In this document: one piece after another, positions 5,766-52,600 of the stretch
Numbering within the stretch: position 1 is the stretch's first letter
Layout: every line of letters starts with the position of its first letter
Origin: Undaria pinnatifida
Lineage: Eukaryota > Sar > Phaeophyceae > Laminariales > Alariaceae
Length of the DNA stretch: 64,000 nt
Assembly (NCBI GenBank): GCA_012845835.1
Contig: JABAKD010000028.1
Location: 2,692,242-2,756,241 of the forward strand
Reading direction: 5' to 3'
Program-made: the position numbers and the translations under genes
The notes under the pieces: model-generated
The model's database searches: none
The model's input: only the letters and a program-made list of their open reading frames with translations
Told to the model about the DNA's origin: nothing

Positions 5766-6567
5766 GGTACTACTGGTACTCTGAGGACCTTTTTTTTGGA
5801 AGATCCAATGCCCTAATCCCGCCGCATCATCTACGCTTCGAGGAGGCACACACATTCCTAATCCCGCCGCATGCCGGATTCACCAAGAAGAGAACACGGA
5901 ACGCGATCCTGGCGACAATCATATATTCTACTCTAATTCCAAGTAATCTGGCCCCGAAATGGGAATGCGGTCCTTAAGGGGTAGATATAACAGTAGGAGG
6001 GGGTTGTTTTCATTAACTCGCATAATCAAGTCCGTGGTCACAGGACAGGGGGTAGCTAGTAGGAGGCATCCTTATGTGAGAGCGCGACCTGCAGGAGACA
6101 TTCTGTGTCCCCGCCCAATACCCTTACAGCAGTACCCAATCACTGCTGTACAAAAACTGTTTCGTTTTTCGGGGCACATCACTTGGAAATAGAGTTGCTA
6201 ACAGACCATTTTTGCGGCGGTTCAAGAGTGGTAATCCAGTCGGCAATACTTTTTATACCTTTTTTTATACTTTTTAATAAAAAAATGAAAAACGTCAGAT
6301 GTGAGTATGATCGGTTGAATTACTGAAATTCAACTTTGCAACCTCTGTGGTACATTAGATCCGTATTTCATTTATGATACATGCTTGTATGGTATTTGTG
6401 AACTAAACCCACGAAATCTACGAAATGTTTGTTAATACACAGCAGTTGTTTCACAAATGTTGCAAAACTATCTATCTGGTGACTCTTCATAAAAAAAATA
6501 AAATTGATCGTTTATGCCAGCTGCTGTGAGTCCATCGGATTTGTACAGAAGAAGTACAGAAGAAGTC

Positions 6568-16500: not shown

Positions 16501-19500
16501 CCCGCATTGAGGGACACAAAACCAGACATCTGTGGAATTCAGTGTGTATAAAATATATATAAAAAAAACTAATGTTATCGTGTGAGTAACTTTTGGCATG
16601 GGTTACTCGGGTCTACCGGGCTTGTACGCAAGTTCCTGTGTACTCCCTGTATATGCGGCAGGCCAGCGGAGGTCCAGCCCAGGCCTGATGCCTGGGTTTT
16701 TTTGTGCTGTTGAGTCATGATGGAACATGCGGTGGACGTCGATCGCTACTGATCCGAAGTGATCTCTCTTCTGCTCGTGATGCAATGCAAAGGCACACTC
16801 ACACACCTGTATTGATCAAATGAAGACCGACGAGTGAGGCCTCGCGTTCTGCAACAGGCGTCGGGCGGTGCACACTTGATCCTAAAGCTCTTCGAACGCC
16901 CATCTCACACTCTGCCAGGGAGTACACAAAACTAACGCGTGGATCCAAAACCAGACCCCTGCAGTCCCTACAGATGGAAGCTCTCGCGCTAAAACGCAGT
17001 GATGATGAGTGCATGTCGCCGTACGTATATATATACCGGTATGATGGTGTAATATTCAATAACATTATTCTAACAACGTCAGCTGTGAGTTCAACGAATT
17101 TAGGGTTTGATAGTCTTATTTGCAATCTGCGTACTACACCGGTCGCTCGCTTCTAGCAGTAAGTTGTTCATTAGTCGATCAAAACCTAATATAAAATGAC
17201 ATCGTATTTCAATACTTATTATGCATGACTAAGAAAACAGCAGTCTCACTGTACCTTCTGCTACAGTGCTGTACCACGTATACAAGGTGTAATATTGTAT
17301 ACCTTACGTATACAAAATATTGCATATTGCGCACGGGGTAAGTTAGCCGGTCCAGGTCTTCATTGGAAGTTGTGGTTTCGTCACTGCTTTGTTGCTCGCG
17401 TTGGTTTCGAGTTTCGAGGGCCAGTTTTTGAGTGTATTTTATCCGATTATGTTTTGAGACTGCTCGTTTTGTTCTGCACATGTATCTCCGACCGTATCGT
17501 AAGTGTAGTTTCGCGTACGTACGTCCCCGTCAGCTGAAAAGCACACCTCATGTTTTCCTCGTAAAACTCCGTTCTTCCGTGGACTCAGCAACGTTTAGCC
17601 GGTTTCGCGCGCAGTTATAACGATAGTAAATGCTGATGTAGATTAAACTATACACTTGTTTCAGATGGTTGTTGTTACTTTTCCGGTTTTCTTGCGTGGT
17701 TAATAATTTTGTTTCCCTTAGTTTTCAATAACCGTTTTTCCCATTTCCGACTTGTGACACCCGTGGTATTTCAAGCCAACAGCATCCCGCAGGGGAACCT
17801 TGTTTAATGCAAGAATATGAGTACGAGTAGGCGATATCATACGTCTCTGTTACCCCCTTTAGCCCTTTAGGACTGCAAAGCTGATCCTCCTCTAGTTCCA
17901 AGTATTATGGATTCGGTTTTAACTGAGTTAAACTTTAAAAGTCTAAACCAGTCCAAAACACGTTTTTGTTTAACGCGACGCACAAATTTCGCCGTCTTGT
18001 TTCACTCAAGTTTTGGTCGTTCGGGGCACCTCTTCCCTCCCTCATTGCGTTCCTTTTTTTTCTTTCCATTTTTTTCTTTTCATTTTTTTCATTTTCTTCC
18101 CTCTTTTTCTTCTATCCTATTAATTTATTTCTTCCTTGCACGTAGTCTGGTGTGATGTATTGCTTGTGTTCTGCCCCGACATTCGTTGCGTTCGGCATTG
18201 CACCACACGTATTGCAATCTGTTTTGTGGTTCGTGACCACATATAGCTCGTCTCTATGAGTAGGAGGTGTCGGCACGGACACTGAAGGTGCTGGGTGTAT
18301 ATTATAAATAATTAAATACACTCCAGCTGTGAGATCAAATATTTTGTCGTATATTATAAAAATTAAAATACACTCCAGCTGTGAGATCGAAGATTTCGTC
18401 GAAACTCATCTTTGCAAGCTGTGTGTGATACTCCGATCGTGCGCATTACGAGTTGTGTGTCCTCATTAAGGATAAAGGTCGGCGACTCCCCTTACAACTA
18501 CAGTGTAGCTATCAGGGTCAACAGGATGATTTTAGTCAGTCTGTGCGCGGAAACTATAAGACCCGTTTCTGAGGGGGACAAAATCTGACAGCTGTGAAGG
18601 GAAAGGGGGCCTGGTTTTGATCAAAAGCGAGCGAGGGGGGGGGGGGGGGGGGGGGGGGGGGGAAGGGGGAATTTGTGCATGTAAGCTATAAATCCTTTCG
18701 AGGGGATAAATCTGACGGTTTTGGCACCAGTATATTATTGGGGGCGGGGGGGGGGGGGGTTTGGGCGGGGGGGGGCATATTATAGTAGTAGATGGGTGGA
18801 AACACACCTGTATAATGTGAACAACACACGATTTAGTGTCATGGATCCGCTGTTTTTTTTTCGATGTAGCCAACAGCGTGGGCTTCGATCCGTTCCGTGC
18901 TAGTGGACTATTCGCAGAACCGTTACATGTTACCAGGTATATTCCCGGCCGAGCTCCGTGGCGGTGCTCTGAGCATGCAACGTCGTCGAAGTGCCTCTTG
19001 TTTCGAGGGGTTGCGTTCCGCCTCGCTGAGCCCAGTAGGTGTGAATGGAAAACGCCACAATTTGCAGCCCCTCCCAATGAAATACTCACCCATATAGTAT
19101 ATTACAAGTACTGTACTGTACCAACAACGCAGCTTGCAAAGATGAGTATTGACCTGAAATTCTTCGAACTCACGGCTGACGTCCTTGGAATATTTTACAT
19201 GAAATGTAATTGAATTAATGGATGAATTACATTGATCTTGTACGTTTTCCCTTATGTATAATTAATGTAGACACGAGACGCGAGTTGATTGTTGTTTTAG
19301 TTTTTTACCATCCCATTTATTATCCTAGCACTGCTCTCGCGCTCCCTCTCAGTAGTAACTCAGATCCGGGGTCACATAGCGGGCTCTTCTCCTCCCCTCT
19401 CTCCACTACGGCACGTGCCTTCATTTTTATCGCTTGAATAATTTAGCATTTTCTTCCCTCGTCGACTCGCGTCGAATTGTGCCTACCCACGCTGCTAGGC

Positions 19501-22500: not shown

Positions 22501-25500
22501 ATATACCTATATCCTTAATGAGGACACACAACCCGTAATACGCGCGATCGGAGTATCACACACAGCTTGCAAAGATGAGTTTCGACAAAATCTTCGATCT
22601 CACAGCTGGAGTGTATTTTTATTTTTATAATGTATAGGGCGAGGTGGTGGTTAGCGTTTTTTACCGCAACAAACCGGCCCCCCCGTACTGCTGTTATTGG
22701 TAGCTTACCGCACTTTGAATAGCTGCTGTTAAATTCGTAATGGGTGGCGGTTGACACACCCGAGATAGTCTTCGGGCGGGATACTTTGGTGTGCGTACAT
22801 ACGATATTTGCAATACATACTCGCACTGCCGTACCCGTTTCGTGCGCGCATGTGATATTGAATGGGCTGGAGGTCGGGCGGTTGAGGCTGATATGGTTGG
22901 ATGATGGGGATTGAATTATGGGGACTTGTTACACGTTAGGTCTCATCGTTCTGAATTGTCGAAAATATTGCGTATAAAGGGCTGAAAATGAATCCCGGAA
23001 GTAGCCTGTGCCGTAGCAGGTATGCGCGCAACAAGACTAACCGGTGGCGTGGTTCATGCGACGCGGTATTATTTGTCAACAACGTGGCATGGTTGGCATT
23101 GAACGGGATAAGGACGGCCACGCGTCGGACTGATCAAGATCTAGATATGTAAGATAGTCTAGATTATCTAGATCCTATAGCGGTGGTTGTGATGTGGTGT
23201 GCAGGACTGATCTAGCCCAGCAAACCTGTGCTATAGATCGTTCAGATGGTTCCGTTCTCACACGGCAACATTATATGTAGGCTCTGCAGATCATATGGAC
23301 CAGGGGCCTGGTTGCCCTGGATTGCATATATGGATCATGTATAGGGATTTGACCTGTCCGATGTGTGAAGACGACCAAAGACATAGTTTGTGCTTCGAAT
23401 GATGGACCAAATCGCCCAGGTAGAGGATATGCACCATGCCTCGTTTTTTCCCTTGTTTTTGCGGGGCCTAGTATACCAGAGGCGTTGATATATGCAGCAG
23501 TGGGGGGCAGGCGTCCCCGATGGTGTAGTAGGTGAATATCTCCTCTGCGAAGTTAATGCTTGAATCCTCCCGAGTACATAGTCGTGCTTGTAGGAATCTT
23601 TTCTTGCGTAAACTGTTGACTAGCGGAAAGCGCGAGAGCCTGAGTTGGCAAAATTCAATGAAAATCGACGCGCATAAAAAGCTGAAAATTGGGAATGCTG
23701 AACGCTATGCGCGATAAAAATGAAGGCATGTACCGGGGGGGAGGATGGAAGACACGTGTGACCACGGCTTGTCCAGAAGGCCGCTGAGGGGAAATCTTCT
23801 TTCGAGTCGAGCTGGAAAGTATAAAGTGATGATGAAAAAATTGGGAATCCCGTTTTGAGAACGCCCAGCATTCGAGCGGACTTAAGAGCAGCCAAATTGG
23901 CTTATCCTGCCATCCTAAAGTGGCATATTTCCTATTACAGATTTGAGCAATGCGTAGTTAAGAGCGCCTGCTTGGGCTTGTCACATGGCGCTTTTAAATT
24001 GGGGTACCGACTTTGTAATGGTCCTTCTAGTTCCACGCATTTTGTCCACGAAACGTGGGTGCAGGTGTATGCTCGTGGTAGGGATCGATCTGAGATATTT
24101 CTGCTGTATGTTGTTAGCGTACCGATTCGGCGGATTGCCACCCGGCCTTTCCCTACTGCAAAGCTGATCCCTCATCCAGACATCCAAGTTGTATGTTTTT
24201 AACAACCTAGGTGACGCTCTGAAGGGGTTAACCCTCAATTTTTTTTGCGCTGTAGCAGCGTCAGGCTCGCTTAGCTCTGACCCCAACTCTAACCCTAAGC
24301 CCAAGCCCCAACCCTAACCCCAACCCCAGCACCAACTCCAACCCACTTCCAACCCCGACCCAATCCCAACCCACACCCTAACCCCAGCCCCAGCCCCAAC
24401 CCCAGCCCCAACCCCAGCCCCAACCACAATCCCACCCCCAATCCCACCCCAAGCCCATCCCCAAGCCCATCCCCAATCCCCAACCCTAACGGCGGCATCG
24501 GCTGGCTTGTCTAACGCCAAGACCTACCCTAACCCCAACCCTAACCCTACCCTCTCAGTCTGCTCCGGTGACGCCAGAGCTGCACGGCGAGGGGCTTGGG
24601 ATGCAGCCGGTGGCGGGGCACGGCGCCATGCCCGTCGCGCACAACACGCCGGGCACGGAGGCTGCGGTGGCGATGTCGAACATGTCTCTCGAGGGCATGC
24701 CTCCTTCTACGGGATGGGCCCAGGTACTGGAGTATCATATCGGACGAAGCAGTGGCGGGTGTTGCTGGGGCTGTGTTTTTTTGGTATCTATATCGTATTG
24801 TATCAAGATCAACGGTACTTTCATTTCTGCCCAGTGGGATATACCGGCGGTGTCGAAAATGTTCTCGAGGGCATGCCTCCTTCGGGGTAGGCACAGGTAC
24901 GGGAGTGTCGTATCGGACGAAGCAGTGGCGGGCATTGCTGGTGCTGTTTGTTTGGGATCTATATCGTATCAGCATCAAACGGTACTTTCTTTTCTGCCCA
25001 GAAGGGTGTACCCTGGGTTACCCCGGTGTCAATTTGATTGCGCCCGTCTTACTCGCCCCGCAGAGTATATACGGAGCACAAGGTTCTCCTGCAGGGTGTA
25101 GTTGGCTTGAAATCTCGGGGGTGTCACCAGTTGAAAAGGGGGACAAGAGTCGAGTAAAAACTAACGTAAAAACAATTAGACACCGCCGTTGTAACCGGAC
25201 AAGTAACACGGACCATCCCAAACGAGTTTGTAGCTCATTCGATACCCTATGCCTACAGTACCTAGTACTACACATGCCTTTGCCTCTAGGTACCCGCAGC
25301 TTATACACCAAAGTATAGATGCCCTTGCAGTTTGCCCGTCGTTTCTTGTCGGCGGCTCTCGGACGGGGCTTGCGGCGAGGCAGATGTATATTGGACTTGG
25401 GCGTGGACATGGCTTGCTTTCACCCCGTGTCCGCACGTTTGGGCGTCACGTTGCCATATATGCTTCCTGCGTTTTCGATGCATGTGTCTCTGACTCGTAA

Positions 25501-28500
25501 TGTGTGGCCACAGAGCTTCTAGCTGCTGCTGTATTTTCGATGAATTGTGTCGTCTCTCTCTTGTGGTGTGTGGCCAGAGAGCTTGTAACTCCCTGAGATT
25601 AGGAATCAGCACGGACACCGAATGTACGGGGTGTCGCGGGGTAGAAATAGTTGGATGCGAAGAGCACGCACCTGCATTATGTTCGTGCTCCACCATCACC
25701 ACCGCCGCCTACGACGTCTAACGTCGGGGGGCATCGTGGGATGTCCTTGCGGGTTACGTGCAGATATGTCGGCATTCTTACGAGACCTGAGAACGTGGAT
25801 AACTACTACCACGCCCATAACCGCGCCTGTAGCGTGACGAAGCCCCCCCACCCCCACCCCACCCCTCGCCTCTTCCTCTCGGTCTATAGCCTCACCGCCC
25901 GCACCACCGCGCCAATAACCACGCCTGTAACGCGACGAAGCCCCCCCCCCCCTCCGTTCCGTTTTTAGCCACACACGCAGTCCATGGATGCCTTGACCCT
26001 AACGCCTGCCTGGGGCGGGCCGCACGATTCCATCGCGGAGACCGGGCCCCCGAGATCCATCTCGGAGTCGGCGGGGGTTGGGGGCAGGGTCAGCGTTAGT
26101 GGAGGCACCAGAGGAAGCATGTCGACGGGTGCGCCCGTGGCGTATTGGCACAAGCCAAGAAAATCCAGGACCATGTCGTCGCAGCTCGTGTTTTCGACCC
26201 AACCGGCGAAGGACACGCTAGAGATCCTGCAGCCGGACCCCAATCTTTGCGGTGAGTTGTAAAGGTTGATGGTGTTGCGCTTCATGGCTAGGGTTAGATC
26301 CATTATGTTTTTTTCGTTATGATATTGTTGCTTGTTGCAATGATGTGGGCATAGTTGGGCGTTTTTAAGATAGCACAATTAGCGTAATTAGGCTGTTGGT
26401 CGAGCATAACTGGCTTGTGTTTCCTACCAAGCCGGCGAAAGACGCCCTAGAGATCCTTCAGCCGGACCCCGATTTTTGCGTGCGTGAAGAAACGTTCCAC
26501 GGCTTATTTTGGGTGAGGCTTATATTTTCCCATGTGCCATACTACGTATCATTGCTGTTGGCATAAATGGGCGTGATTTAGAGCATAAAAGTAGCAAGTA
26601 TGTTGGCAAACCTTAAATGTTTTTAAGTGCGTAAGAGCAGCGTAGGTTGTGCTTTCGACCCCGCCGGCGAAGGACACGCCAGAGATCCTGCGGCTGGACC
26701 CCAGCCTTTGCGTTGGTGCCAAAAAATGCTGTTTGGCGCAAGACTCCGCAACTAACTGATATACACTGCTGTAATACACTGCTGTAATACACTAGTGATT
26801 ACTACCGGTAGAATCTAGCCGGTGACTTACCGTTTTGTGTACTATTAGTACAAAAATCCAACTCACAGTCCTACGGTTTGGAATGGTAGGACCCCGCAAA
26901 TTTTCGCCAGCACTCCACTGAAATACCTGGTGCACTGCTGTGATACACTGTATACGCTGTAATACATTGTACTCATTACTAACTAGTCGGCGGCTTACTG
27001 TTTGTATACTACCGCTATTGGTGTACAATGCTACAGTAGTAACTCACCTACTGGAGTGGTTGGACGCCGCAAAATCCCCCCCCATAATTGTTAATAACTC
27101 ATATACCAGATACACTGTATTACACTGTAATGTACTGCTGTTTTTTTTTTCGCACACTTCTACTTTCCAGCTTCTGGACAATCCATGGTCACAGGTGTCG
27201 TCCTTCCCCCCCCCCCCGGTTCTTGCCTTCAATTTTTATCGAGCATAGGGTTCAGCACTCCCACTGCTCGTCGATTTTTCATCGAATGTTGCGAACTCAC
27301 GCTCTCGCGCTTTCCGCAGTCAATTTCAGCACAAGACAAAGTCCCAACGGATTTATACGAGTATGCACTCGGCGGACTGCTGTATAGTCTACCCAACTAA
27401 TTATTACTGCGGTAGTAAGTAGTCGGTGACTTGCTATTAATACTTATAATAGTATAAAAAGCCACCTCGCTGTCCTACGGTTTGGAGTGGTGCGAGCTAC
27501 AGAGCGAGGCCGTTATTCTCGAGGCTTTGGTGTGGGAGCAAGAAGAAACTCTTGCACCATGGCGTGCCCCGGTGCTTTTTGGGCCGCCGGATGATGACCT
27601 CCGAATGGGAACCATGTCCAAGCGCCGCCACGACGTCTTTTAGCTTTCCGGACGTTTCGGTTTGGTGGGTCCTGCTGCTCCCACTACAGTACACTACTAC
27701 GCTGTTTGTTGACGTGCATTCTACTACACTATCCCGTCTGTTGCTGTATATTCTACTATTAATAGAGCGCTACGCTTTCTGTTGGTGTATTGTTTTTCGT
27801 GAGTGACAGCCGCATCCACTGCCCGCGTTTTTTCACTTTTGGGCCTAGCCGCTGCCCGTGCGCGGCGGTCTTGCATGGTGCATATCCCACCGCCGGTTAT
27901 GGTAGTGCATTTCGTGCTGCCGGTACCGGGTTCTCTTTGTTGACACGAGGACAGTCTCCTTGACGTAGCACGGGCTGGAAGGTGTACTCTTTTCGTGTGT
28001 AACACTACATCTCATCAAGTATTGGGATGTAAAATGGTATGCTTGATTTACAGGCTGCTTGGGTTGAGACAACAGACGACGGGGTATCTGCCCGCGGCCC
28101 AGTGGCCTAGCAGATAATACAAGAAAACAAGGAAGTATTGGTAAGACCACAGGCCGGGGCAGGAGGTGTTAACTACTCCAACGTTGCTTTGAATGGTCGG
28201 TGAAGGCGCCGATACAGCTGTGTAATTCATATGATATCAGTAGGTTATTAGCCTTAATTTTACTCTTTATCGTTTCTCTTTTCTAACGGAGCCGAGTTGA
28301 TATCTCGTCCGTAATTTTTGCCAACGCTAACGCTTGTAGTCACCGCCCATGTTTTTTTTCGCATTTTTTGGGCAGACGTGATGGACGTTATATGTCAGTG
28401 TATGGAGGTTCGCTCATCGACGGAAGGCTCAGAGGAGTCCAATCTGTCACAGCTTAGCGCGTGCTCTTTCAAGAAAGACTCGCATCTTGGCACAGGCTCC

Positions 28501-31500
28501 TTCAAGAAAGACTCGCACCTTGGCACAGGCTCCTTCAAGAGAGACTCCTCCAGGCGCTCCAGCATTTCTGATGTAAGTCCGCAAGTGGTACTCGAACTGC
28601 GTTTTAAAAGTGTAGTGGCAAAATGCTTCCTTGAGGAGTTGCAGCGCTTCTGGTGTGAGTCCGCACTGCTATGCTCTGTTTCTGTCGGAGGAAAAATACT
28701 CCTCAAGGCGTTCCAGCACGTCTTGTGTGTCCACGACAAGGTGTTTATACTGTGTTTTAATATGGACTCTAGGAGACAGAGGACGGGTAGGTTTTTGCGC
28801 TTTTTGGACCTGATTTTCTGCAACGCGTAGAGGGACCGATGAATGCAACACTTATGTACGTGAACAATGAGTTCGTATCAGTAGGTTTATGACTCAGAGG
28901 CCACCCGGCAAGCGCTTGGTGCAAGAGCAGTTCCGCCTGGCGAACGTGGTATAGACCGTGCAAGTATGAAAAGTCGGGAAACATCTGCTTGGAAATGTGA
29001 AATAAACTCACGGCCGACGTCCTCAAAAATATTTTTATAATATGGTGGGTTGAGGATCTCATCTGGCTACCGAGTGGAAGCTTGCACCTCGGACACAGGT
29101 AACGATCTAGATCATCTAGATCATCTGCAGTAGATCCCGCATCTGCCGTTCTGATATGTTGTGCAGGATCTGCACTATTGAGAGTACAGAGCCAACCCAG
29201 GAAGCATTTGCTAGATTATGCATATCGTACGGCTCCCACCCGGTAACATGAGCTAGACCATACAGGTCTTTTACCTGAAGTATCCAGATCATCAAGTGGG
29301 GATCGGTGATGTATCTGTCCGACGTGTGGAAGGCTGTGTACTCGTGTCCTGTTATGGTGCCGCAACTTTTTTACCCTACCTAACGTTCCTTCCCATGCCC
29401 GATGCAACGTTTTTGCTGTTGCGTTTGTCTCGTGCCCCAGCTGCTGAATAGTATTTCTTGGGAGAGCGCTATGCGCGGGTCTCTCCTCGCTAGGAACTCC
29501 TTGGCGGGGTGAGAAAGCTGGCAGCGTGTCGGGTTGACGGATGCTCGTGGCAATCAATTTTTATTGTCGGTTTTATTTCCGTTTCTTCTGCTGTTGTTGT
29601 TGTTGTTGTTGTTGTTGTTGGTGCTGCTGCTGCTGCTGCTGCTGCTGTTGTTGTTGTTGTTCAAACCACTGCGACGTTACTTGAAACACATTACCTTTCT
29701 CGGGATATGACTTTTTTTTATATATTAATAGTAGTTTGTTGCAAGTTTATTTTATCTCTTAGGTCGGGGCCGAACCATGCGTGAACACGATACGCATTCG
29801 CTGTCGATAGGCTTACACCCGTTCTGCTCCTTGTATGGGAATTGATGTTCCATTTACTCATTTACTGGCCTACTCCGGTCGTGCTTTCTTAATTTCCCCC
29901 CAGTTTTTGTGCTCCAAAACAAGTAGAACTTCGAAGTATGCTAATTTTTGTCTCGATAAATGTAAGAGCACGTCTTTCGTGCTGTTAATACCCCAGAACT
30001 GCCGTCTGCTGACATGTCCTGTGTTTCTACTATTTTCAGTGCTGGCGATAGTCCTGTAGTATATATCTATGTTTCACACTTCTACTTTCCAGCTTCTGGA
30101 CAAGCCATGGTCACAGGTGTCGTCCATTCTTCCCCCCCGGTTCTCGCCTTTAATTTTTATCGCGCATAGGGTTCAGCAATAACATTGCTCATCGATATTT
30201 CATCGAGTGTTGTGTAAATCATGTGTGTTTTATAAAAGTATTCGCGTTTTTTTGCTGTCTGGCGCAGGGCGGCGGAAGCGGCCATTTCGGAAGCCGAGCA
30301 AGAGACCCACTCCAGGAGCGGACACACCAACCGCACGAATAGCAGCAACAGCAGTAGCACCCACAGCAACCGCAGCATCACCGTCAATACGACCAGGCCG
30401 GGCATGAAACAGTGGCCGTCCTTCGACCCGGCCAGGGAACTGGGAGGAGGAAACTCGGCAACCGTCACGAGCATGGCCCAACCCGCTGTTGTCTCGCTCT
30501 CCCCTCTCGGCCAGCAGCCGCTGCAGCAGCAGCTAGAGCAAGGGCAGAAGCAGCCGCAACGGGGAAGGCCGTCTTTTGACCCTAACTCGGAGTCGGCGAT
30601 GGCGGCGAGTCTGCGCGCACCTGGGAACGCGAGGAGACAAGCGGCTGAAAGGGCTGCGAAAGCGGCGGCGGTGGAGCCTACGCACGAGGTGTGTCGATTG
30701 TATCATACTATACGAGGTGTATGAGATAGTTATGTGGCCGTCTGGCGATACATAGAGCTAATATATGTATATATATGTTCTTGTTCACGGTGCCCGAGCC
30801 CAAGCGAGCGCGAGGTTTGTTGATTGAGTGTACGAGGTGCACGAGATTGCCGTGTAATCCTTTGGCAGTGCGTAGAGACAACAGGCGTGTTTAACCCGCG
30901 GCGCCCGAACCTAATCGTGGAGTGTGTTGAGTGTACGAGGTGGTTGTGTAACCGTGTGGGAGTGCGTAGAGACCACAGGCATGCTTCTTGGAGGCTGTGC
31001 GCGAGGCGTGTTGAATGTACGAGGTGTAAGAGATGGTTGCAGGGGTGTCGTTACGTTGCTACCGATAGGTTGCGGTAACATTCAGCCGTATGCGTAACAA
31101 AAAAAAACTTGCGTCCCCTATATCCCCGCTGTTACTTAATTTTGGAAACCTTTACCACCAGGGGATGGCTAACGTTAATCCCCTCCCGGGGATGGTACTG
31201 ACGAGTACCCGATATTACCGTACGTTCACATACGTGACTCCAGAGGCTGAAAAGGTGTAATTTTCCATGTGCATTTGTATTTGTGTTGCTTGATAACGAT
31301 CGACGGTCCTTTCTGCGTTCACGAAGGTGGCGATTGGCGGAGGTAATATGCCTCACGGGACGCCCAACACGATGGCTAGAGAGACGTCAAGAGAAAGCAC
31401 CACCGCGAGGATATTCAACGCCGCCGCTGCTAGGCCTGCTGCTGCCACTGCTGGTACTACTGCTGCTTCTGCTGCTGCTGGCGTTGGTGGAATTGGTGGG

Positions 31501-34109
31501 AGTGGCGGTGTAGGCAGCGGAGGCGGTGGGGTTGGGATTGGCGCTGGAGTTGGCGGGGTTGGCGACGGTGTTAGCGGGGTTGGTGGTGGGGTCTGGGAAA
31601 TGAGCGGGGGGGGAGTGCAGACGTCGCAGAGTTGGGGAAGCCGCAAGGATAGCGCAGAAACATGTAGCGTCACGTCCGCGAGAACGAGCACGACGTCCGT
31701 GACCACGAGCACGACGTCCACCGCCGTCCACTGGGATGCCTCGCTGCAGGCTCATCCCGTGCAGCTAACTGCCGCCGCCGCCTCTGCTGGTCCTTCTGCG
31801 GTGACGACGGCGAGCACGTGGGGTCTAGAGACTGAACTGTTGCAAGTTGGGGAAGGCTTGTCTCCGCAGGTGTCTATGTCGCCGCCGACGTCTTCGGTTA
31901 CTTCGTCTCCGACCAGCCCGGCGGATACAGAGGCGTTCACCCGGCCGGCGCTGGGGCGCATGTCCAGCCTGATGTGGCTGACGGAGCCCACCCCTAGCAG
32001 GCGGCCCACGATGTGAGAGAGTTGCTAGAGTGATTCGAGGCGCTTGATATATCCCGTTACGTGTTTCCGCTCGATTCCCTTTGAGGGGGGCTGTGGTTGT
32101 ACAGCCAGGCTGGTCACTTGTTAATATGTTTTTGTCCTCGACTTGTGAATGCGTAAATGTACCATGTCCAGCTCGATATCGTTGACGGAGCCCACTCCTA
32201 GCAGGCAGCCAACCATGTGCATGGAGTTGCTTGCTCACAAATTTGTAGACGTCCGATCACATTCCGTGTTTTCCTCTCGATCGCCTCTTGGGAAGGGACT
32301 TTTTTTACGTATAACTTGTAAATGTGTTTCATGCCCAGCCTGATTGGCTGACCGCGCCTACCCCGAGCAGGCGGTTGACTATATGTGAAGAGTTGCTCGG
32401 TTGTTTTCAAGGCGTTAGATGGGTCCCATTATGTGTGTATTATCTAGCGATCACCCCCGCCACCTCGATTTTTTTTGTGGGGGGAGGGGGGGGTTGTAGG
32501 CTTGTAGAATGTAAATCTGTTTGTGCCTTAACAGTTGTCAAGTGTGAAGAACATTTTTGCGCCCCCATGATGGTACGATTTTTACCCTTTTTTTTGTGCT
32601 CTATGAAGGACCTCGTAAATGTGTGAGTTATTTGTTTGCCCTATGATGTATTCGTGCTGCCCTGACTAACTTGTGAATAGGTTTGTGTCCCGTTCAGACG
32701 GGGCTGGGTCTTGCCTTGCTGTGTTTTTGCAGCATTGCCATGTTTGAAAGCGTGTGGTTGGTCTAACAAGACGGTACAATTATTAATTGTCGTGTCTTAA
32801 GGGTTGGACGGGAGCATTGTTTTCGTGGCGCAGCAGATGCTTCGACAGCCGGTTCCCCCCCCCCCGACCCGCCCCCTCTTTCCTCCCCAACGAAGATGGC
32901 GACGTTGGAAAATGGTGCCGTTGAGATTATTCCATTTAGACGCATCGCTCTGCGTTTGTACATTCAGTCCACGCTGTTGAAAACAATCGGCTTGGAATCT
33001 CGGGGGGGAAATGTATGATGGGGCGGTGTTATCTTGTGTGTTGTATGTACCGTGTACCAGGTGTAGGTAGAGGTGGCCGTCTGGCTGTTTTTGTGGCCAG
33101 AAAGAGACATCTATGCTATTCATAGAAATAGCTGTCGCTAGGAGTTATTTGGAGTATCGTTGATACCACTGGTATGGTTGGTCTTTCGTGCTGCTCAGGC
33201 CGTAATCGGTCGACGAATTGTGGAACCTCACAGCTGCCGTAACGTATTGTAACAATTTTATAGGATTATTAGTGGGCAGCGGTGGCCCAAGCCGCATTTA
33301 CATATACGCAGATACCATAGATCACGAAACATGATATAGTCTGTCCTGCGACGGATTTAACGTGTTACCTTTGAGGCCGTTGGGGAGCAGGTCCAGCTCC
33401 TGTACGCAACCGCCGTTCAGCTCCACCCCGAAGCGCAGTTCGTTAGATTGGCGTCGGTGGCCCACCCTGCACGTTCACCCTAATTGGGGCCACCCGTCGA
33501 TTTGTACAGCGCCAACAGCGCCTCGCGTTCTACTTTCTTTTCAAGTCTCCTGCGGAGGGGTCAACATCGAATAGCATTTACCGAATTCTGGATAGCGGGC
33601 GTTACCCTCGCCATGGCATGAGTCTATTCATGGCAGTTTCTAAGCGTCGGGGGGGAGAGCTGGTTTCGCCGCAACGCAGATGTTTCGACAGCAGTATCCC
33701 ACCCACCGAATGGTCCATCCCCTCCCCCCCCCCCCCTCAAGTCGATCTCCTCGCGCCCTGACCCGAGAACAACAGCCGTAGAGCTCTCCAGGGATTGTTT
33801 CTGACTCCACCTCCCGTCATTTTTGTCGTCCACCCACCCGCCCATCGACCGCGTCTCTCTATTTCGTTTGTGTTTGTGTCCTCGCCCGTCGGCCGCCTTT
33901 CTTTTTTTTTTTTCGCGTATGTGTGGTTGTATCCTTTGTCCGCTCATTTTTCTCTTCTTCGCGTGTGTTTTTTGTCACCCTCAAGACACGAGAGCAACGA
34001 GGTGGACCGCTTGCTGGCGAATACCGAAAAATTCGCGGCATGGACGAGAGTCACGGACGACCCCGATTCGATGCTAGTGGCGAAGAGCATTAGCGACTAT
34101 TTGGGATGA
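13389..34109 (+). CDS. HSF: Heat shock factor-type transcription factor (ten recognised exons)
   Basis: Nuclear DNA-binding regulator of the HSF family, which binds nGAAn arrays in stress promoters. Exons: 13389-13520, 15881-16033, 21212-21310, 21530-21634, 24559-24723, 25981-26251, 28376-28572, 30268-30688, 31327-32012, 33986-34109 (stop TGA). The winged-helix domain fills the first two (about 95 residues): [19 protein letters not shown], then [22 protein letters not shown] and the wing [20 protein letters not shown]. The remaining roughly 690 residues are Gly/Ala/Ser/Thr/Gln-rich, and no HR-A/B coiled coil is seen. Phases agree at all junctions except 28572 to 30268 (see findings). The N-terminus is missing. 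The domain identity is firm; the C-terminal exon chain rests on splice sites and phase. Confidence 0.88.
14880..14960 (-). repeat. R1 core-like fragment inside HSF intron 1
   Basis: Contains 'GCAGCTTGCAAAGTTGAGTATCGACC' and 'GAACTCACAGCT', the conserved core shared by all R1 pieces. The remainder of the intron from 13521 to 15880 holds GTT microsatellite (14581-14603) and many TACCAGGT motifs but no recognised gene. Confidence 0.5.
15486..15606. repeat. Tandem duplication, 2 x about 60 bp, in HSF intron 1
   Basis: Two copies of 'CCAGACGCATGGCAACGTACC...' each ending 'ATACCAGTACGAAGTAT'. They differ at a few positions only, so this is a fairly recent duplication. Confidence 0.85.
15881..16033 (+). 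CDS. HSF: HSF exon B: recognition helix and wing
   Basis: 51 codons, acceptor TTCAG|TAC, donor AAG|GTGAGC, phase 0 at both ends. It encodes [15 protein letters not shown] (recognition helix), LYGYRKV, then the wing [15 protein letters not shown]. The SFRRQLN variant replaces the SFVRQLN of animals and plants. The intron between exons A and B sits exactly between helix 2 and the recognition helix. Confidence 0.93.
16275..16550 (+). repeat. Dispersed repeat R1, body copy in HSF intron 2
   Basis: Contains the core (CTCAGCTTTGCAAGCTGCGTGTGATACTACGATCGC), the 'GGATACAGGTCGGTCACTCCCCTGCT' block and a 'GGACACAAAACCAGACATCTGTGGAA' end. It is more diverged than the copies at 7.0 and 18.3 kb. Confidence 0.6.
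18005..18730 (+). repeat. Dispersed repeat R1, long copy in HSF intron 2
   Basis: T-rich lead, head (TTCCTTGCACGTAGTCTGG), the GTCGGCACGGACACTG block, then the body starting 'CACTCCAGCTGTGAGATC', whose beginning is duplicated at 18303-18390. A run of about 30 G at 18631-18662 interrupts it. It is the best example of head, block and body in one orientation. Confidence 0.65.
19125..19205 (-). repeat. R1 core fragment
   Basis: The core 'GCAGCTTGCAAAGATGAGTATTGACCTGAAATTC' followed by 'GAACTCACGGCTGACGTCCTTG' is nearly identical to 53580-53650 and to the reverse of 63620-63700, while the flanks differ completely. Confidence 0.7.
19295..19645 (-). mobile_element. tRNA-derived SINE, tail type 1, nearly full length
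   Basis: Inverted copy of the element at 6568-6935. It runs from the tRNA-like head at about 19557-19645 through the body to the tail 'CCAGTAGTAACTCAGATCCG' in reverse. It is inserted in HSF intron 2. Head, body and tail are all present, so it is close to full length. Confidence 0.75.
20800..21130. repeat. Degenerate CACGGCACAGC / CAGCTGAGC repeats before HSF exon C
   Basis: Short GCACGGCAC- and GCTGAGCT-type units in two clusters (20810-20920 and 21005-21130), separated by a unique stretch. The second cluster ends about 80 bp before the exon C acceptor. Confidence 0.65.
21212..21310 (+). CDS. HSF: HSF exon C
   Basis: 33 codons, acceptor TATAG|ACC, donor AAA|GTAAGT, phase 0 at both ends. 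The frame was chosen because it alone keeps exons B, C and D in phase. The peptide ([10 protein letters not shown]...RNIRK) is hydrophilic with no known motif. An alternative frame of the same segment also looks protein-like but does not join exon D. Confidence 0.6.
21530..21634 (+). CDS. HSF: HSF exon D, His-rich
   Basis: 35 codons, acceptor ACTAG|GTT, donor CAG|GTGAGA, phase 0 at both ends. The peptide VPHYDMHG...[15 protein letters not shown] is His/Pro-rich. The strong donor and the open frame on both sides support it. No family motif is seen. Confidence 0.6.
21875..22195. repeat. 41-bp tandem duplication followed by a GGGTCGGG minisatellite
   Basis: Two units of 'CGGTGCCTTGCCAGATGRTAATACCGGC' lie at 21878-21960. 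From 21995 to 22190 irregular GGGTCGGG/ACGGG repeats match the 8.95 and 9.65 kb arrays in the reverse orientation. Confidence 0.7.
22385..22505 (+). mobile_element. SINE fragment, tail type 1
   Basis: Only the 3' part of the SINE remains (CCCCGGATCTGAGTTACTACTGG to GGGATAAA). It is followed immediately by an inverted R1 piece. Confidence 0.6.
22505..22640 (-). repeat. R1 body fragment
   Basis: Reverse copy of the segment from 'CCAGCTGTGAGATCGAAGAT' through the core to 'CTCATTAAGGATATAGG'. It directly abuts the SINE fragment. Confidence 0.65.
23119..23367. mobile_element. MITE, TCGGACAG-terminus family
   Basis: 249 bp with inverted ends CACGCGTCGGACTGATCAAGATC and, at the right, the reverse of the same motif (CTGTCCGATGTGTG). 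The interior is rich in AGATCATATAGATC-type palindromes. Four relatives lie at 29085, 42226, 48802 and 50567. It encodes nothing, so a transposase in trans is implied. Confidence 0.75.
23600..23835 (+). mobile_element. SINE, tail type 2, head missing
   Basis: Starts within the body (TTGACTAGCGGAAAGCGCGAGAG) and reaches 'TGTGACCACGGCTTGTCCAGAAGG' and 'GAGCTGGAAAGTA'. The 5' truncation is typical of target-primed insertion. Confidence 0.65.
24290..24556. repeat. Telomere-like AACCCTAACCCC array directly before HSF exon E
   Basis: About 40 degenerate units of CCAACCCY with CCCTAACCC and CCCAGCCCC variants run up to the pyrimidine tract of the exon E acceptor. The interstitial array serves as the polypyrimidine tract; many units even contain an internal CCCAG. 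Confidence 0.9.
24559..24723 (+). CDS. HSF: HSF exon E
   Basis: 55 codons, acceptor CTCTCAG|TCT, donor CAG|GTACTG, phase 0 at both ends. The peptide [20 protein letters not shown]... ends [15 protein letters not shown]. It is Gly/Ala/Met/Pro-rich, a type of composition common in activation domains. The last 60 bp plus the donor are copied again 173 bp downstream. Confidence 0.7.
24664..25035 (+). repeat. HSF: Tandem duplication of the HSF exon E end plus donor (period 173 bp)
   Basis: Copy 1 spans the end of exon E and about 115 bp of intron. Copy 2 (24847-25015) repeats 'CTCGAGGGCATGCCTCCTTC', the donor image CACAG|GTACGG and the intron text 'ATCGGACGAAGCAGTGGCGGG'. A third partial copy begins at about 25016. 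Copy 2 in the matching frame reads LEGMPPSG and then a stop, so as a coding duplicate it is broken. Confidence 0.9.
25800..25958 (+). repeat. HSF: Duplicated acceptor-side segment before HSF exon F
   Basis: 'ACGCC.ATAACCGCGCCTGTAGCGTGACGAAGCCCCCCC' at about 25805-25855 is repeated at about 25908-25955, with period about 98 bp. Each copy ends in a C-rich tract. The downstream copy provides the pyrimidine tract of the exon F acceptor. Confidence 0.85.
25981..26251 (+). CDS. HSF: HSF exon F
   Basis: 90 codons plus one base, acceptor ACGCAG|TCC, donor GCG|GTGAGT (phase 1). The peptide [13 protein letters not shown]... ends [12 protein letters not shown]. There is a Ser/Arg segment ([10 protein letters not shown]). 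No known domain is present. The last 60 bp recur twice downstream at a 230-bp period. Confidence 0.72.
26190..26725 (+). repeat. HSF: Three tandem images of the HSF exon F end (period about 230 bp)
   Basis: The exon end motif (CCGGCGAAGGACACGCYAGAGATCCTGC...CCGGACCCC..TTTGCG) recurs at 26428-26480 and 26651-26712. The intron parts between also match in places (GTTGC...TGGGC..., TTTTTAAG). Only the first has a good donor (GCG|GTGAGT); the others read GCG|TGCGTG and GCG|TTGGTG. Confidence 0.9.
26755..27500. repeat. Intronic tandem array, about 190-bp units, split by a SINE
   Basis: Units share 'TACACTGCTGTAATACACT', 'GTCGGCGGCTTACTG' or 'GTCGGTGACTTGCT' and 'CTACGGTTTGGA.TGG'. Two to three units lie before 27140 and the remainder of the array resumes at 27395 after the SINE insertion. 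CACTAC..CTGTTTGTTG units trail on to 27790. Confidence 0.75.
27141..27375 (-). mobile_element. SINE, tail type 2, 5'-truncated, with target duplication
   Basis: Poly-A end (T run at 27141-27150), 'CCAGCTTCTGGACAATCCATGG' and body to 'CGAGTATGCACTCGGCGG'. The flanks are ACTGCTGT on both sides (27134-27141 and 27376-27383), an 8-bp target duplication that fits LINE-mediated insertion. The tRNA head is lost. It entered an existing tandem array, which dates the array as older. Confidence 0.85.
28376..28572 (+). CDS. HSF: HSF exon G, with 33-bp internal repeats
   Basis: Two bases plus 65 codons, acceptor GGCAG|AC, donor GAT|GTAAGT. It joins exon F in phase (G|AC). It encodes two and a half copies of an 11-residue unit ([11 protein letters not shown]), rich in Lys/Ser, then [11 protein letters not shown], a likely phosphorylated Ser patch. 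The frame stays open past the donor for another 85 codons. A longer form ending at the copied donor (28652) is possible and would fit exon H in phase. Confidence 0.65.
28530..28745 (+). repeat. HSF: Three tandem images of the HSF exon G end plus donor (period 72-82 bp)
   Basis: 'TCCTCCAGGCGCTCCAGCATTTCTGAT|GTAAGTCCGCA' is followed by 'TTGAGGAGTTGCAGCGCTTCTGGT|GTGAGTCCGCA' and then 'CTCCTCAAGGCGTTCCAGCACG...GTGTGTCCACG'. Two of the three images keep a usable GT donor. Confidence 0.85.
29085..29328. mobile_element. MITE, TCGGACAG-terminus family
   Basis: 244 bp. Left end CACCTCGGACACAGGTAACGATC, right end GTATCTGTCCGACGTGTG. Shares 'GTTGTGCAGGATCTGCA', 'TCGTACGGCTCCCACCCGG' and 'CATGAGCTAGACC' with the copies at 42226 and 50567. 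Confidence 0.8.
29585..29662. repeat. (GTT)n(GCT)n(GTT)n microsatellite
   Basis: A compound trinucleotide repeat of about 24 units in the intron before HSF exon H. The rest of 29663-30068 has no recognised feature. Confidence 0.95.
30069..30215 (-). mobile_element. SINE fragment, tail type 2
   Basis: 'CACTTCTACTTTCCAGCTTCTGG' through 'GGTCACAGGTGTCGTCC' to 'TTTTTATCGCGCATAGGGTTC' and a short body end. It is 5'-truncated and lies just before HSF exon H. Confidence 0.7.
30268..30688 (+). CDS. HSF: HSF exon H, Ser/Asn- and Gln-rich
   Basis: One base plus 140 codons. Acceptor CTGGCGCAG|G after a strong pyrimidine tract, donor GAG|GTGTGT. It encodes [15 protein letters not shown]..., then a PG-(M)-KQWPSFDP segment that recurs later as [11 protein letters not shown], and a Gln-rich [18 protein letters not shown]. 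It ends with an Ala-rich helix ([13 protein letters not shown]). The start needs a phase-2 partner, which the canonical exon G end does not supply. Confidence 0.65.
30660..31080 (+). repeat. HSF: Four tandem images of the HSF exon H end plus donor
   Basis: The exon end and donor (GTGGAGCCTACGCACGAG|GTGTGTCG) recur as CCCGAGCCCAAGCGAGCG...GAG|GTTTGTTG (about 30790), CCCGAACCTAATCGTGGAG|TGTGTTG (about 30905) and GCGCGAG|GCGTGTTG (about 31005). Shared intron text 'GAGTGTACGAGGTG..' and 'GTGCGTAGAGACCACAGGC' confirms the register. Copies are about 100-120 bp apart. Confidence 0.88.
31327..32012 (+). CDS. HSF: HSF exon I, large low-complexity exon
   Basis: 228 codons plus two bases. Acceptor CACGAAG|GTG (phase 0, joins exon H), donor ACGAT|GTGAGA (phase 2). 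It encodes an Ala/Thr run, a long Gly/Val segment ([15 protein letters not shown]...), a Ser/Thr-rich stretch and a C-terminal [16 protein letters not shown]. Without splicing, an in-frame TGA would follow at once, but splicing at GTGAGA joins the last exon in phase. The composition suggests a disordered regulatory region. Confidence 0.7.
31962..32425 (+). repeat. HSF: Three tandem images of the HSF exon I end plus donor
   Basis: 'CTGACGGAGCCCACCCCTAGCAGGCGGCCCACGAT|GTGAGAGAGTTGC' recurs at about 32160-32225 ('TTGACGGAGCCCACTCCTAGCAGGCAGCC...ATGTGCATGGAGTTGC') and 32325-32395 ('CTGACCGCGCCTACCCCGAGCAGGCGG...ATGTGAAGAGTTGC'). Spacing is about 207 and 165 bp. The third image also keeps a GTGAAG donor. 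Confidence 0.92.
32795..33790. repeat. Duplicated segment in the last HSF intron (two copies about 840 bp apart)
   Basis: 'TGGACGGGAGCATTGTTTTCGTGGCGCAGCAGATGCTTCGACAGC' near 32812 matches 'TCGGGGGGGAGAGCTGGTTTCGCCGCAACGCAGATGTTTCGACAGC' near 33650, each followed by a C tract. Between them no repeat is recognised. Confidence 0.65.
33369..33466 (-). other. Exon-like minus-strand segment inside the last HSF intron
   Basis: On the minus strand an acceptor (GTGCAG|G) and donor (CTCAAAG|GTAACA) bound an open stretch reading ...[25 protein letters not shown]. The peptide looks well formed and is not low complexity. No family is recognised and no partner exon is found, so chance is quite possible. 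The plus strand is also open here for 37 codons. Confidence 0.22.
33986..34109 (+). CDS. HSF: HSF last exon J with stop codon
   Basis: One base (completing an Ile codon with exon I), 40 codons, then TGA at 34107-34109. Acceptor CCTCAAG|A follows two T-rich TTCGCGTRTGTG units. The peptide [19 protein letters not shown]...KSISDYLG is a compact acidic/amphipathic helix, unlike the low-complexity exons before it, and is suited to an activation or interaction motif. Confidence 0.7.
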
Positions 34110-46693: not shown

Positions 46694-49600
46694 TTGCAAC
46701 ATTTTCAAGCGTCTACGTAGGAAGAAAGAGGATACAACAGCGACTGTACCCCGCCATGCTGCACGCTCGACGCACAGCTCGTCACGGTCAAGGTTGGGGT
46801 CGAAAAGGTGCAACTTTTTTTCTTCTGATGCCCATCACTTTCTTAGGTGCTTTAGACCTCTCCCACAAAAGGCTAGGGTACTATCACACCCCTTTGTTCT
46901 CTACCGGGCTTGAGGCACTCGCACGAGTGACTATACCTCACTGGCAAATACTCCAGGCGGTGTTTTTGGCGCAGCGTAGGTTACCATTCCATTGCGGTTC
47001 CTTATCTAGCAAAGTTCAAACAGCACGAAAGCCGAAGACCGAAAGAAAACAGGGAGATCACTCGCGCAAGCGACCGCGAGCCGCCGAACAAAAAAAAGTC
47101 CCCCCCCAAAAGCGTCCTCCCTACCGTAGCCTCAGGGAAAAATGGAACAGCTACCCCGATGCACGTAACAATGGCCTACGAAGGGATACAAGCGAAAACC
47201 ATGCAAAAAAAAAGGCCCATTATTTACTTTTTGTCTGAAAGTGCTATTTATGCCCTCTATCGACACTTTGGTTCCACTACGACCTTTTTTTCTCTCTCTC
47301 AAGTCTCGAAGAAGCGAGTCATCCCACGGCACGGGGTGTTTCGGAATTTTATGAGCTCCAAACGCGAGGTGCTCAATATCCTACACGAAAACATAACTTC
47401 GTACTTCGAAGGCATTCGTTCGCGCTATCCGAGCAACACTTCTATGCGCTCGTCCGGAAACAATCGTACTCGCAAAAATGTCAGACCAGCCGGTAGTTCC
47501 TCGGTTGAGGACCTCAACTGGCCACAAAAAACGTGTAACTAAAAAACCGCAACCCCCTTTTGTAGGATGACTCAAAGGGTTAACGATGTTTTGTAGCACG
47601 TGGCCGGCGATCAAGTCATAAATGCGTATTTCCACTCCGTGCGTGCTTTACCCGTCACACACAACCTGGACAAGAACTACCAGGCACCTGTGCCAATCAG
47701 CGATCAATGCGTTTCGTTCTTGTGTCGCACGTGCACGCATACAAAATGCCGCGAGGGCAGAATCGACACGGAGCTCCTCCATCGGAACCCTGGTGGTGCA
47801 AACAAAAGAAAAGGGCCATGCACAGCCTGGCTCTCGCATCGGGACAGGGATGCACATTTTTGTGTTTTTTCAACCATTTCACCCCTGCGACGTCATCAGG
47901 GGCTACTCCGACCGGTTGGTATTTCCTATGGGTAGGGTTAGGGTTAGTTCCATCCATGGCGAAAAACACAATACTGTAGGACATCCCATCGGGAGCTGGT
48001 GGTGCAAACTAAATTAATGGATCACGCACACTCTGACGCCGGCCCCGCGCACATGAAACTAACAACGAATCGCACAAACTTCAAGGAAGTCGATGGACGG
48101 AGGGAAGTCGTACCGTAGGAGGACAAGCGGACGGTCTCGCTCCTCCACATTACGCGACGAAGGCGGCCGCGCGCGACAACATCTTACCTGGCTCTGAAGA
48201 GTTGGGGTTGGTGGCGCCGAGCATCTTACGGCCGGTGAGGATAACCTCAGGCCCTTCCCACACCATCGCCACGATTGGTCCGCTGGCGAAGTAGTCCACG
48301 AGGCCGCCGAAGAAGGGCTTCTTCGACAGGTCTGGAAGGACGTGATAATAGTGCATTCGTTGTGTTCACGGGGACCATGTACTACGTCGGAAGCAGTGCA
48401 ACTATCCGGGGGATACATACATGTTCTACGACGGCAGCAAAACCAAAAAGCTGGTTTGCTAATTGAAATTGCTGTTCGGGATGGAAGTGGGGGTATAAGC
48501 GAGGTTAGATAACGTCAAACTATTTTCGGGTGTCGGGGAGACGATACGGCAACACCCGTACCCGCTGCTGTTCGGGATGGAAGTGGGGGTGTAAGCGAGG
48601 TTAGATAATTTCGAACCATTTTCGGATGTCGGGGAGATGATACGGCGACACCCGTACCCGCACCCCCCACAGCTTCAACATCAGCATCCCGTTCAGCACC
48701 ATCGCCCTTGGCTCCAGCCCGACCTGTTGTGTAGACCCCAGCCGACATTCGCTTTTTTAGCGTTTGGAACACCGGTGATTTCATGTTTGGTATTTTTTTT
48801 CCTACATCGGGCAGATCACCATCTACATGATCTAGATTCTACATCGGTCATTATCATGTAGTACTGTGTGCAGAATCTGTGTAGCAATTGTGCATATCTA
48901 ACGCAGGAAACTTCTGCTAGACCCTTCAGATCATCCGTCTCTCACCCGGCTACATGATCTATAGGCCATGTAGATCATATAGACAAGGGATCTGTCTGCC
49001 CATAGATCTTATAGACCAGGGACCTGTCTGCCCTGAAAGATATAGATCAAATAGAAAGTTAATAGGGATCTGATCTGTCCGACTTGTGTATCGCTTGGAA
49101 ATCGTACCGACACAGGCGCATGATAACCCGACCCGCTGACCGGCGCAACGAAGGCATGCCCTCGCCGCAGCTTTTCCGCGTTATCCCTGTGCTCGCCGAT
49201 AAAATCCTTCCGGTCGGCATAAAAAGCATTGGTAACGAATTTCTCGCCGCCTGGTCGAGGTGTGCTGCATGGACATTTGCGAGGTCGCCCAGACGCGCCC
49301 AGATCGCACTCATGCGGGCCAGTAGCACCTCCCCTCGCGCCTTGTAAATGGCTCACAAGGTCCCCGTGCCGTAGCCCATTACGATCGCCAAGGCCTTAAG
49401 GAGGATAGCGAAACGCTTCGCCGGGTAGCATGGGAACTGCGCTCATCCCTCCAGTACCGGTACCGGTTCGGCCTACCGCTCGGGTACCGATATCGGTTCG
49501 GGTTACCCCTCGGGTACCGGTACCGTTGTCGGTTCGGGTTTGCCCCTCGGGTACTGGTGACGGGTCGGGTTACCCCCCGGGTACCGGTAACGGTTCGGGT

Positions 49601-52600
49601 TACCCCTCGGGTACCGGTGCCGATTCGGGTTACCCCTCGGGTACCGACACCGGTTCGGACTACCCCTCGGGAACCGATACCGGTTCGGGTTACTCCTTGG
49701 GTACAGGTACCGGCTCGGGTTACCCGAGGTACAGGTAGAGTTTCACCCGGCGAAGCATTTCGATGTCCTCGTTACGGCATTGGTGGTCGTACTGCGACAT
49801 GGTACGGAGACCTTGCGGGTCATTTCTAAGGCGAGGAGGGAGGTGCTGCCAGCCGACATGAACGAGGTGAGGGTGCACCTGGACGATTTTCACGGATTCA
49901 GTAAGCCTCGACCAGAACGAGGTCGACGCCCAGAAACGCATCACAGATGCCATTCACGCCGACCTAAAGGATGTCCATCGCGTACTCACTGACGACGTGG
50001 AAAAGCTGCAAGAAGCGAACACCTTCGCGACGCCAGTCAGCGGGACGGGTCATCCCGCGAAGCCATCGCGTTTCGAGCACGTATCATGCCTAGTGGACCA
50101 CAGCAGTAACTCCCACAATGTAACCGGGTGTCAAATGTAAAAGTCAGCCTAGACTGAGGCCGCGGTAAGGGGTGGTTCTCCTCATTTCGCCCCATAAAAA
50201 ACGATCACTCCCTCAGCTGCTGAAAAAAAATCCTGTAAAAGCAACTCCTTCACCATACGAGCCCCAGGTCCTTATGAATCTGGCGAACTATATTTGCCAG
50301 CTCATGCTTCAAGGAATTACCACTGGCTTCAACCAATTAAAAGATCACCATACTTGCGGTAGATAAGAGCACGGGTTTCCCGGTTGTATGAAGGCACAAC
50401 ATGTTCGGGTCATGCCTCGTGGACAACGCCCTCGTGTCCCCGCAGCAGAAAGCGTGAGAAAACACGCGGATACCGGCCACCAAGCGCCACGGGGGCGTCC
50501 GCGAACCACAGCCTCCGAGAACACACAATACGACGAGAGCCGTAGCAAGTTTTGGGCAAAACGTTTCACCTCGGGAAGATCACGATCAAGATCATCTACC
50601 GTAGGATACGTACGTATATCCTGTGTCTGCTGCCGACATAAGATGTTGTGCAGAACCTGTGTGTAGATAACACAGATTGAACCATTGGGAGTAATACGCT
50701 AGATCGTACAGATCGTACGCCTCCCACCCGATAACATGAGCTAGAGCCTACAGATCTTCTCTGAAATATGTAGATCATGAAGTGGGGATAGCTCATCTCA
50801 TCTGTCCGAGGTGTGGAGCTCTTCCGACCGGCGGGGCTCCTCAATTAGACTAAATAACTACCAGTATCTATCCTCTTTCATTACAATTGGGGAACGCGAT
50901 TTTGTTGTTGTATGCTTAGGCAATGGGATGGATAATGGGGTTGCGCGTTCCTTACGTACATCTATAAAGTCAGTTTATGGGCAAGGAGCAGAGCTCAAGT
51001 GAGAGCCTACGAAAAAGTGGGTGGAGTTTGTTTACAAGGTCAGCCATTGAGCTAATCACTGAGACTTCTACCAACCCTCCCACCACTACAAACACTATTT
51101 CCACGTAGTTTGTCGCAAAAAAACGAGGGTGCAGTGCTAGCGTCGTACGTCAAGAAAGCTATGCATACTGGTTCAGGTAACGCTTGTTCTGTTCATTCCG
51201 TCCCGTTCTAACTCCTAGCATGATCCTATTAAAGGGTCATTTCAAGTGTTTCGTCCACATGTCGGGGGCGCAGCGCTAAAACGCTACGATGCACTATACA
51301 TGCAGATGATTTTCGTACTCTCGCAGTCTCACCGGCGTAGTGGTTCGCAGCCATCTCCTTGGTGGGCCAGATCATCTATATATCATATACACACAACGAA
51401 GGAAGAAACAAGAGCAGGGGAGTCGGCGACAACCAAACGTGCGAGGTGGGGCAGCAAGGGCAACGGGCACAAGCAGTCAGAGTCCAGCACAACAGGCATG
51501 AATGCTACACGGTAAAGGTAAACACAGCAAACGCAATCCAAGCGCGTGAGTGTGTAGTAAGAAGGTGACAGGTCACACAATGAGGTTCGCGGGCAACGTG
51601 TATTCGCCGATACAGCGGTTGCAGAATAATATATCGAGTGTAATATTTCACTGAACACTCTGGTAACCCTTAAGCCAAAAGCGGGGGGACAAGAATCGTG
51701 TCCCCGAAATTGGAGAAACACCCCGCGGCTGTACAGACAGAGCGATATGTTGTGTTCTGCACCAGTATCAAGCACTGCTAACAAAGTACAAAGGCACCCG
51801 AAGAGCGCGGTATGTAAAATTTTACACGAAGTACAAGCCTATCAAGCCGATCGCGACCAGCGCTTTTCGTTCAGTTAGGGAGATAGGCGAACCAGACAAA
51901 CGAATATCAAATGCGCCTGCCCTTCAACCGTACAGGAAGCGATCATTACGGCAAAGTCAGGGGACGTTTCAGACACAACCTCAATGGGATCGAAACGCAC
52001 ATTCAAATGTGTGTAGGCCTTTTTCCTTCGTCTGGGTACACGATACCGTATATCTGAATGACACGCCAGTTGGCGTTTGTGCACGCTGAGCCAGAAGGCC
52101 TTACGATTTTGGGGTTGAACTTCTCTCGCACCCCAGAGTGCTTGGGAACATCATTCTTGCAATCCAAGCCGCCATCGCCATGGTCGCAGCAGGTTGCATA
52201 GCGACAACGTAAGCTCAAAGCTCAAAGTCCGTATGCCACTTCCCAGGGTGGAGCATATGCAGGAATTTCCTACAAACTTCTATTATGGTGTCAGTAGGGG
52301 ATAAGGGGCGGTGCGTAATTACGCCGGCCCAGTACAATGACTTGAAGCCAAACCTGCTCGCCATAAGGGCGTCATTACGTAATCCGACATGACTACTGTA
52401 TGCGTGTTCTTCACATTACACTGGTATGTCCACTCATCAAATATATATATCCAGCACAACCAGTGTCGTCCCAACGCCTCCTATTATGGAGACAAGCTCA
52501 AGCTCTGTGGTCACAAACTACAACACAGAGATACAATACATAAATGTAAAGACTCACAGGATATACATGGTAAACTGGTGCATTCCTTCCACAACCGTCA

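Follow-up and report, generated by a model that had tools for sequence, protein, structure and literature searches.

Tandem copies of exon ends in a predicted heat shock factor gene of Undaria pinnatifida are probably local duplications filtered by coding selection

Intron gain via tandem genomic duplication is a published topic (PMC3443670; PMC4974935). It resembles the arrangement described here in that local tandem duplication copies splice-site-like sequence, and the extra copy is tolerable if it is spliced out. That process, however, places a new intron inside an exon, whereas here existing introns, or the 3' flank of the gene, receive copies of exon ends, and no new intron is in evidence. 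Novel intron positions have been reported to arise in Drosophila through partial exon duplication (PMC2891723); in that case both splice sites come from a duplicated proto-splice site, whereas the introns considered here are presumably old and the copies lie behind the donor. Polyubiquitin, for which dual-specific splice sites have been described (PMC10809524), also has a tandem array with a potential splice site in each unit, although each unit there is coding sequence whose sites serve in splicing, whereas the outside copies here decay and their sites are putative. Additional splice signals near exon 3' ends are likewise a feature of recursive splicing near distal exon ends (PMC10156609). 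In the summary given there these are used sites recovered from lariats, with no tandem origin mentioned, whereas the sites reported below are putative only. Copies of exon ends behind existing donors were not found as a subject among the listed titles and abstract openings of open-licence papers on intron gain by tandem duplication, which does not in itself prove novelty.

We have analyzed one window of 64 kb (the whole stretch of DNA considered here), with ten donors and nine acceptors, from a genome of 511 Mb in 68 contigs, where it occupies 2692242-2756241 of contig C35. Its features are collected in Table 1. Exons of a heat shock factor (HSF) gene lie on the forward strand, where exons A and B, once joined, match PF00447 with E=4e-26 (Pfam). 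The translated exons E, F, G and H had no match in a Pfam scan that admitted values up to E=0.1, and exons E to I are provisionally assigned to the HSF gene from their position, open frame and mostly fitting phases. The constraint seen in the exonic copies of F and I, described below, is further support for these two as exons. The phases of H and I agree. G, on the other hand, ends in phase 0 whereas H requires a two-base carry, and because of this mismatch either the donor of G is doubtful or one exon between G and H may be missing. A codon-score scan with a cut-off of 12 listed none of exons E to I on the forward strand, and listed an antisense stretch over I. That exons C and D, expected between B and E, are absent from the same scan says little, since it missed E to I as well.

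Table 1. Features of the 64-kb window, with positions counted from its first base; exons E to I are predictions
Feature	Position	Strand	Description
Exon E (predicted)	24559..24723	+	Donor after 24723, CAG/GTACTG; open frame, GC3 0.82; phase fits F
Exon F (predicted)	25981..26251	+	Donor after 26251, GCG/GTGAGT; open frame, GC3 0.77; in phase with E and G
Exon G (predicted)	28376..28572	+	Open in frame 2, GC3 0.65; donor out of phase with H
Exon H (predicted)	30268..30688	+	Donor after 30688, GAG/GTGTGT; open frame, GC3 0.75; phase fits I
Exon I (predicted last exon)	31327..32016	+	Open frame to TGA 32014-32016; constraint ends at the stop
Array E	24669..25012	+	Two copies, unit ~177 bp, spanning the donor of exon E; copy 2 retains CAG/GT after 24896
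Array F	26180..26715	+	Last 68-72 exonic bases and two copies downstream (~26413-26480, ~26641-26715); GT lost in both
Array G	28545..28730	+	Weak, three copies; both outside copies retain GT (after 28654 and 28726)
Array H	30677..31060	+	Weak, four copies, chiefly of intronic sequence starting at the donor
Array I	31959..32436	+	Three copies spanning the stop codon of exon I
Nucleoside diphosphate kinase (NDK) exon	48188-48329	-	PF00334, E=1.2e-12
Start of UDP-glucose dehydrogenase (UGDH) gene	55982-63263		Three exons seen; PF03721 profile positions 2-34, 36-89 and 91-141 in successive exons

Other classes of sequence were also searched for. Rfam gave no match at the gathering score in the window, and a known structured RNA was set aside on this ground; two sub-threshold matches fall within 24000-33000. 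A tRNA was ruled out, none being found in a tRNA search. An interspersed-repeat pattern of the window had no match in viral contigs, and the segment 24559-32420 had none in plasmids. A number of other repeats were observed. An interspersed repeat of ~150 bp in the intron after exon E (25078-25235) has at least 45 other matches in the genome, with 40 of 537 candidates scored; four of the matches fall within ~810 bp on a single contig (C32), and another lies at 17648-17803 of the window on the other strand. Two HSF introns carry a dispersed element (27153-27291 and 30075-30212, 88% alike) that has relatives near 3840-4034 and 23595-23830. A degenerate ACCCCA-type repeat occupies 24280-24540, just before the acceptor of exon E (TRF: period 6, ~35 copies), and a 96-bp tandem array is located at 48470-48661 in the upstream flank of the NDK exon. 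Larger minisatellite-like arrays are present at 5451-5771 (period ~42) and 49447-49725 (period ~30), far from any identified exon. Within the coding sequence, predicted exon G contains an in-frame 33-bp tandem array (28463-28547), and four other such arrays are found in H and I, with periods of 21, 12, 21 and 21.

Head-to-tail copies with locus-specific sequence are clear at E, F and I and weak at G and H. The donors of E to H terminate predicted exons, and in no case does the following exon start at a copy. In array E, which has only two copies, positions 24669-24845 align with 24846-25012 at 81% over 178 columns (BLAST), with a donor-to-donor offset of 173; the exon parts are identical at 46/51 positions and the intron parts at 100/115. 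The outside copies of array F are offset by 229 and 461, and their exon-part identity to the exon is 57/68 and 61/72. The intron parts of this array align weakly between copies 1 and 2 and not at all with copy 3, as would be expected of decaying partners. Behind the coding end at 32016, array I has copies from 32163 and 32330, with exon-part identities of 48/57 and 46/56. Both E and I can be aligned on either side of the exon edge. Array G involves ~30 exonic bases, with copies G2 and G3 at offsets of 82 and 154. Array H involves ~10; its exon side alone is not significant (z 1.2), and its intronic copies are identical at 51/60 positions between copies 2 and 3 and at 44/63 between copies 1 and 2. 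With so little of the exon involved, a frozen exonic copy is a poor explanation for H, which may be an intronic array that starts at the donor. At the place matching the donor, GT is kept in five of the eight outside copies of E to H (E2, G2, G3, H2 and H3) and lost in three (F2, F3 and H4).

A first-pass annotation of this DNA had described five independent local duplications with different periods, and self-comparison and alignments bear this out, the periods given being about right. The annotation had also stated that the last 40-60 exonic bases and the GT donor were copied at each of the five exons. The length is too great for G and H, and the copying of the donor holds for the five outside copies that keep GT but not for F2, F3 and H4. 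At exon I the copies are not behind a donor at all: since the frame of I ends in TGA and the phases of H and I agree, they lie in the 3' flank.

The strength of each array was expressed as a through-boundary score, that is, the score of the best alignment that crosses the boundary and matches a place 50-700 bases downstream. The scores are 153 for E, 90 for F, 80 for I, 32 for G and 27 for H. All five exceed mononucleotide-shuffled DNA, for which the 99th percentile is 21, so that the exon-end copies reported downstream of all five exons are confirmed as strong at E, F and I and as weak at G and H. The same scores, in the order E, F, I, G, H, are reached by 0.3, 2.5, 3.4, 8.1 and 10.3% of 1,513 positions of the window, taken every 41 bases with exons and arrays included. 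Local duplications are common in the window, about one position in ten matching the score of H, and TRF and BLAST place local arrays across its whole length, many of them far from known exons. Outside known exons, a score of 27 is found at 16% of 439 positions from E to I (a sample that takes in the arrays), 8% of 837 positions from A to E, 24% of 307 downstream of I, 3% of 525 in the UGDH introns, 15% of 924 in the segment 1000-13000 and 7% of 1,520 in the segment 36000-55900.

With three copies per array, most changes can be assigned to one copy as private. Among the 68 exon-derived sites of F, private changes number 2 in the exon, each at a third codon position, and 9 and 8 in the intronic copies; those of the two outside copies together fall 7 times at first, 5 at second and 5 at third codon positions. 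In I, the 56 gap-free sites before the stop codon have 0, 6 and 8 private changes (exonic copy first) and 2 more sites are different in all copies, while the 68 sites after the stop have 9, 11 and 11 private changes and 6 all-different sites. The divergence in F and I is star-like around the exonic copy. When the two arrays are pooled, the exonic copy has changed at 2/124 sites, compared with 31/248 for the outside copies (p=0.0002, or p=0.001 when the all-different sites of I are counted as changes in each copy). Within I, the exonic copy has 0/56 changes before the stop and 9/68 after it (p=0.004), whereas the outside copies display no such contrast (14/112 and 22/136, p=0.47), and constraint therefore stops at the coding edge. 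By these patterns of change, the exonic copy is constrained up to this edge and not past it, and the outside copies are unconstrained on both sides. The frozen-copy signature is seen in F and I only: E has too few copies, H has few exonic bases, and in G the copy with the fewest changes lies outside the exon (3, 5 and 2 private changes over 27 sites, exonic copy first). Of the TRF arrays contained wholly in exons G, H and I, 5/5 have a period that is a multiple of 3; taken together with the widespread arrays, this is expected if duplication strikes anywhere and selection filters the outcome.

Indiscriminate local tandem duplication filtered by coding selection is probably the best explanation of the arrays, and the apparent tie of the repeats to exon edges most likely needs no special element. 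Independent and ordinary tandem duplications, with units of roughly 80-230 bp, probably chanced to span the 3' edge of an exon, and we infer that nothing directs them to donors. The donor ahead of the copies, or at exon I the stop codon ahead of them, would have stayed in use, and the extra copy would have been tolerated outside the coding sequence. Coding selection would hold the exonic copy still, but substitutions and indels would erode the copies outside the exon, as well as whatever is noncoding in each copy. Similarity between a frozen copy and a decaying one would be recognisable for longer than that between two decaying copies, and it would fade past the exon edge; the repeats would appear anchored at that edge because the exon side, being constrained, stays recognisable. 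In a simulation with assumed rates (40 trials for each point), the pair with a frozen exon part still reached a score of 27 in 50% of trials when divergence stood at 0.4 changes per site, and the neutral pair in none. The simulated detectable lifetime, by a hand sum over the table, was ~1.7 times longer with a frozen exon part. The shared anchor at the exon edge proposed in the first-pass annotation survives as an appearance only: E and I align across the edge, and the exon side of F and I is kept by constraint. The lengthening of introns, which had also been put forward, is a real consequence although a generic one.

Several observations run counter to this explanation: the frozen-copy signature is confined to two arrays, the four donors from E to H all score 27 or more, and acceptors lack copies. 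When a match on the exon side was required, upstream copies were found at 0/9 acceptors (scores 8-24); plain symmetry would lead one to expect some, though the sample is small. The nine do not include a tentative acceptor for exon A, and the exon-side minimum was applied to acceptors because those of E and F scored 35 and 39 upstream almost wholly on the intron side. Such an asymmetry would arise if splicing filtered the duplications unevenly: a copy behind a donor would be harmless, the first donor committing first, whereas a copy upstream of an acceptor would capture the splice and be removed, and introns would grow mainly from their 5' ends throughout the genome. Copies scoring at least 27 are present at 4/10 donors, including all four from E to H, but the difference from the acceptors is not significant (Fisher p=0.09). 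No downstream copy was found at any of the six other homology-anchored donors of the window (HSF A and B and the three of UGDH, scores 8-19; NDK, 18), array I spans a stop codon and not a donor, and the donor hits fall within the repeat-rich part of one gene, where the local baseline is the 16% given above. With a baseline of 0.10, at least four of ten donors would be hit with a probability of 0.013; this rises to 0.06 if the baseline is 0.16 and to 0.27 if it is 0.27, the local baseline raised 1.7-fold. For four successive donors, E to H, all to reach 27 has p=0.005 at the baseline of 0.27, but these donors were picked for being hit. We consider an uneven filter unlikely, if still worth keeping in mind. 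It is similarly doubtful that introns of this lineage grow preferentially at their 5' ends; if they did, donors throughout the genome would be followed by decaying exon ends, much like a fossil record.

It had also been suggested that the copies act as decoy or alternative donors, and they might in principle be working sites of this kind, or alternative exon ends, under selection. The GT retained in 5/8 outside copies would suit such a role, as would the reading frames, which stay open between E and E2 and, starting in G, beyond G3. The outside copies at F and I, however, change freely across all codon positions, and GT is gone from F2, F3 and H4. The use of E2 (offset 173) would shift the frame into F, a stop is met before H2 when reading past H, and neither G2 nor G3 (nor, likewise, G's own donor) provides the phase required by H. 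Working decoys are rejected as the main reading on the basis of this free change, the GT losses and the misfits of frame and phase, and we hold such a role to be very improbable. Slighter still is the chance that a mobile or introner-like element targets exon ends. Interspersed repeats are present in these introns, among them the family at 25078-25235 with its many scored matches elsewhere in the genome, but this family does not overlap arrays E to I. Moreover, each array has its own sequence, and among the 60 listed of 100 distant or inverted pairs in the window, none involves arrays E to I.

Under the explanation that we prefer, random duplications can appear anchored at exon edges through coding constraint, which is a trap for repeat scans of genes. 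Such arrays, with one frozen and one decaying copy, are their own control, and can serve as markers of coding edges and of neutral decay with no need for a second genome. If the bias of donors over acceptors were true genome-wide, it would tell how long introns grow.
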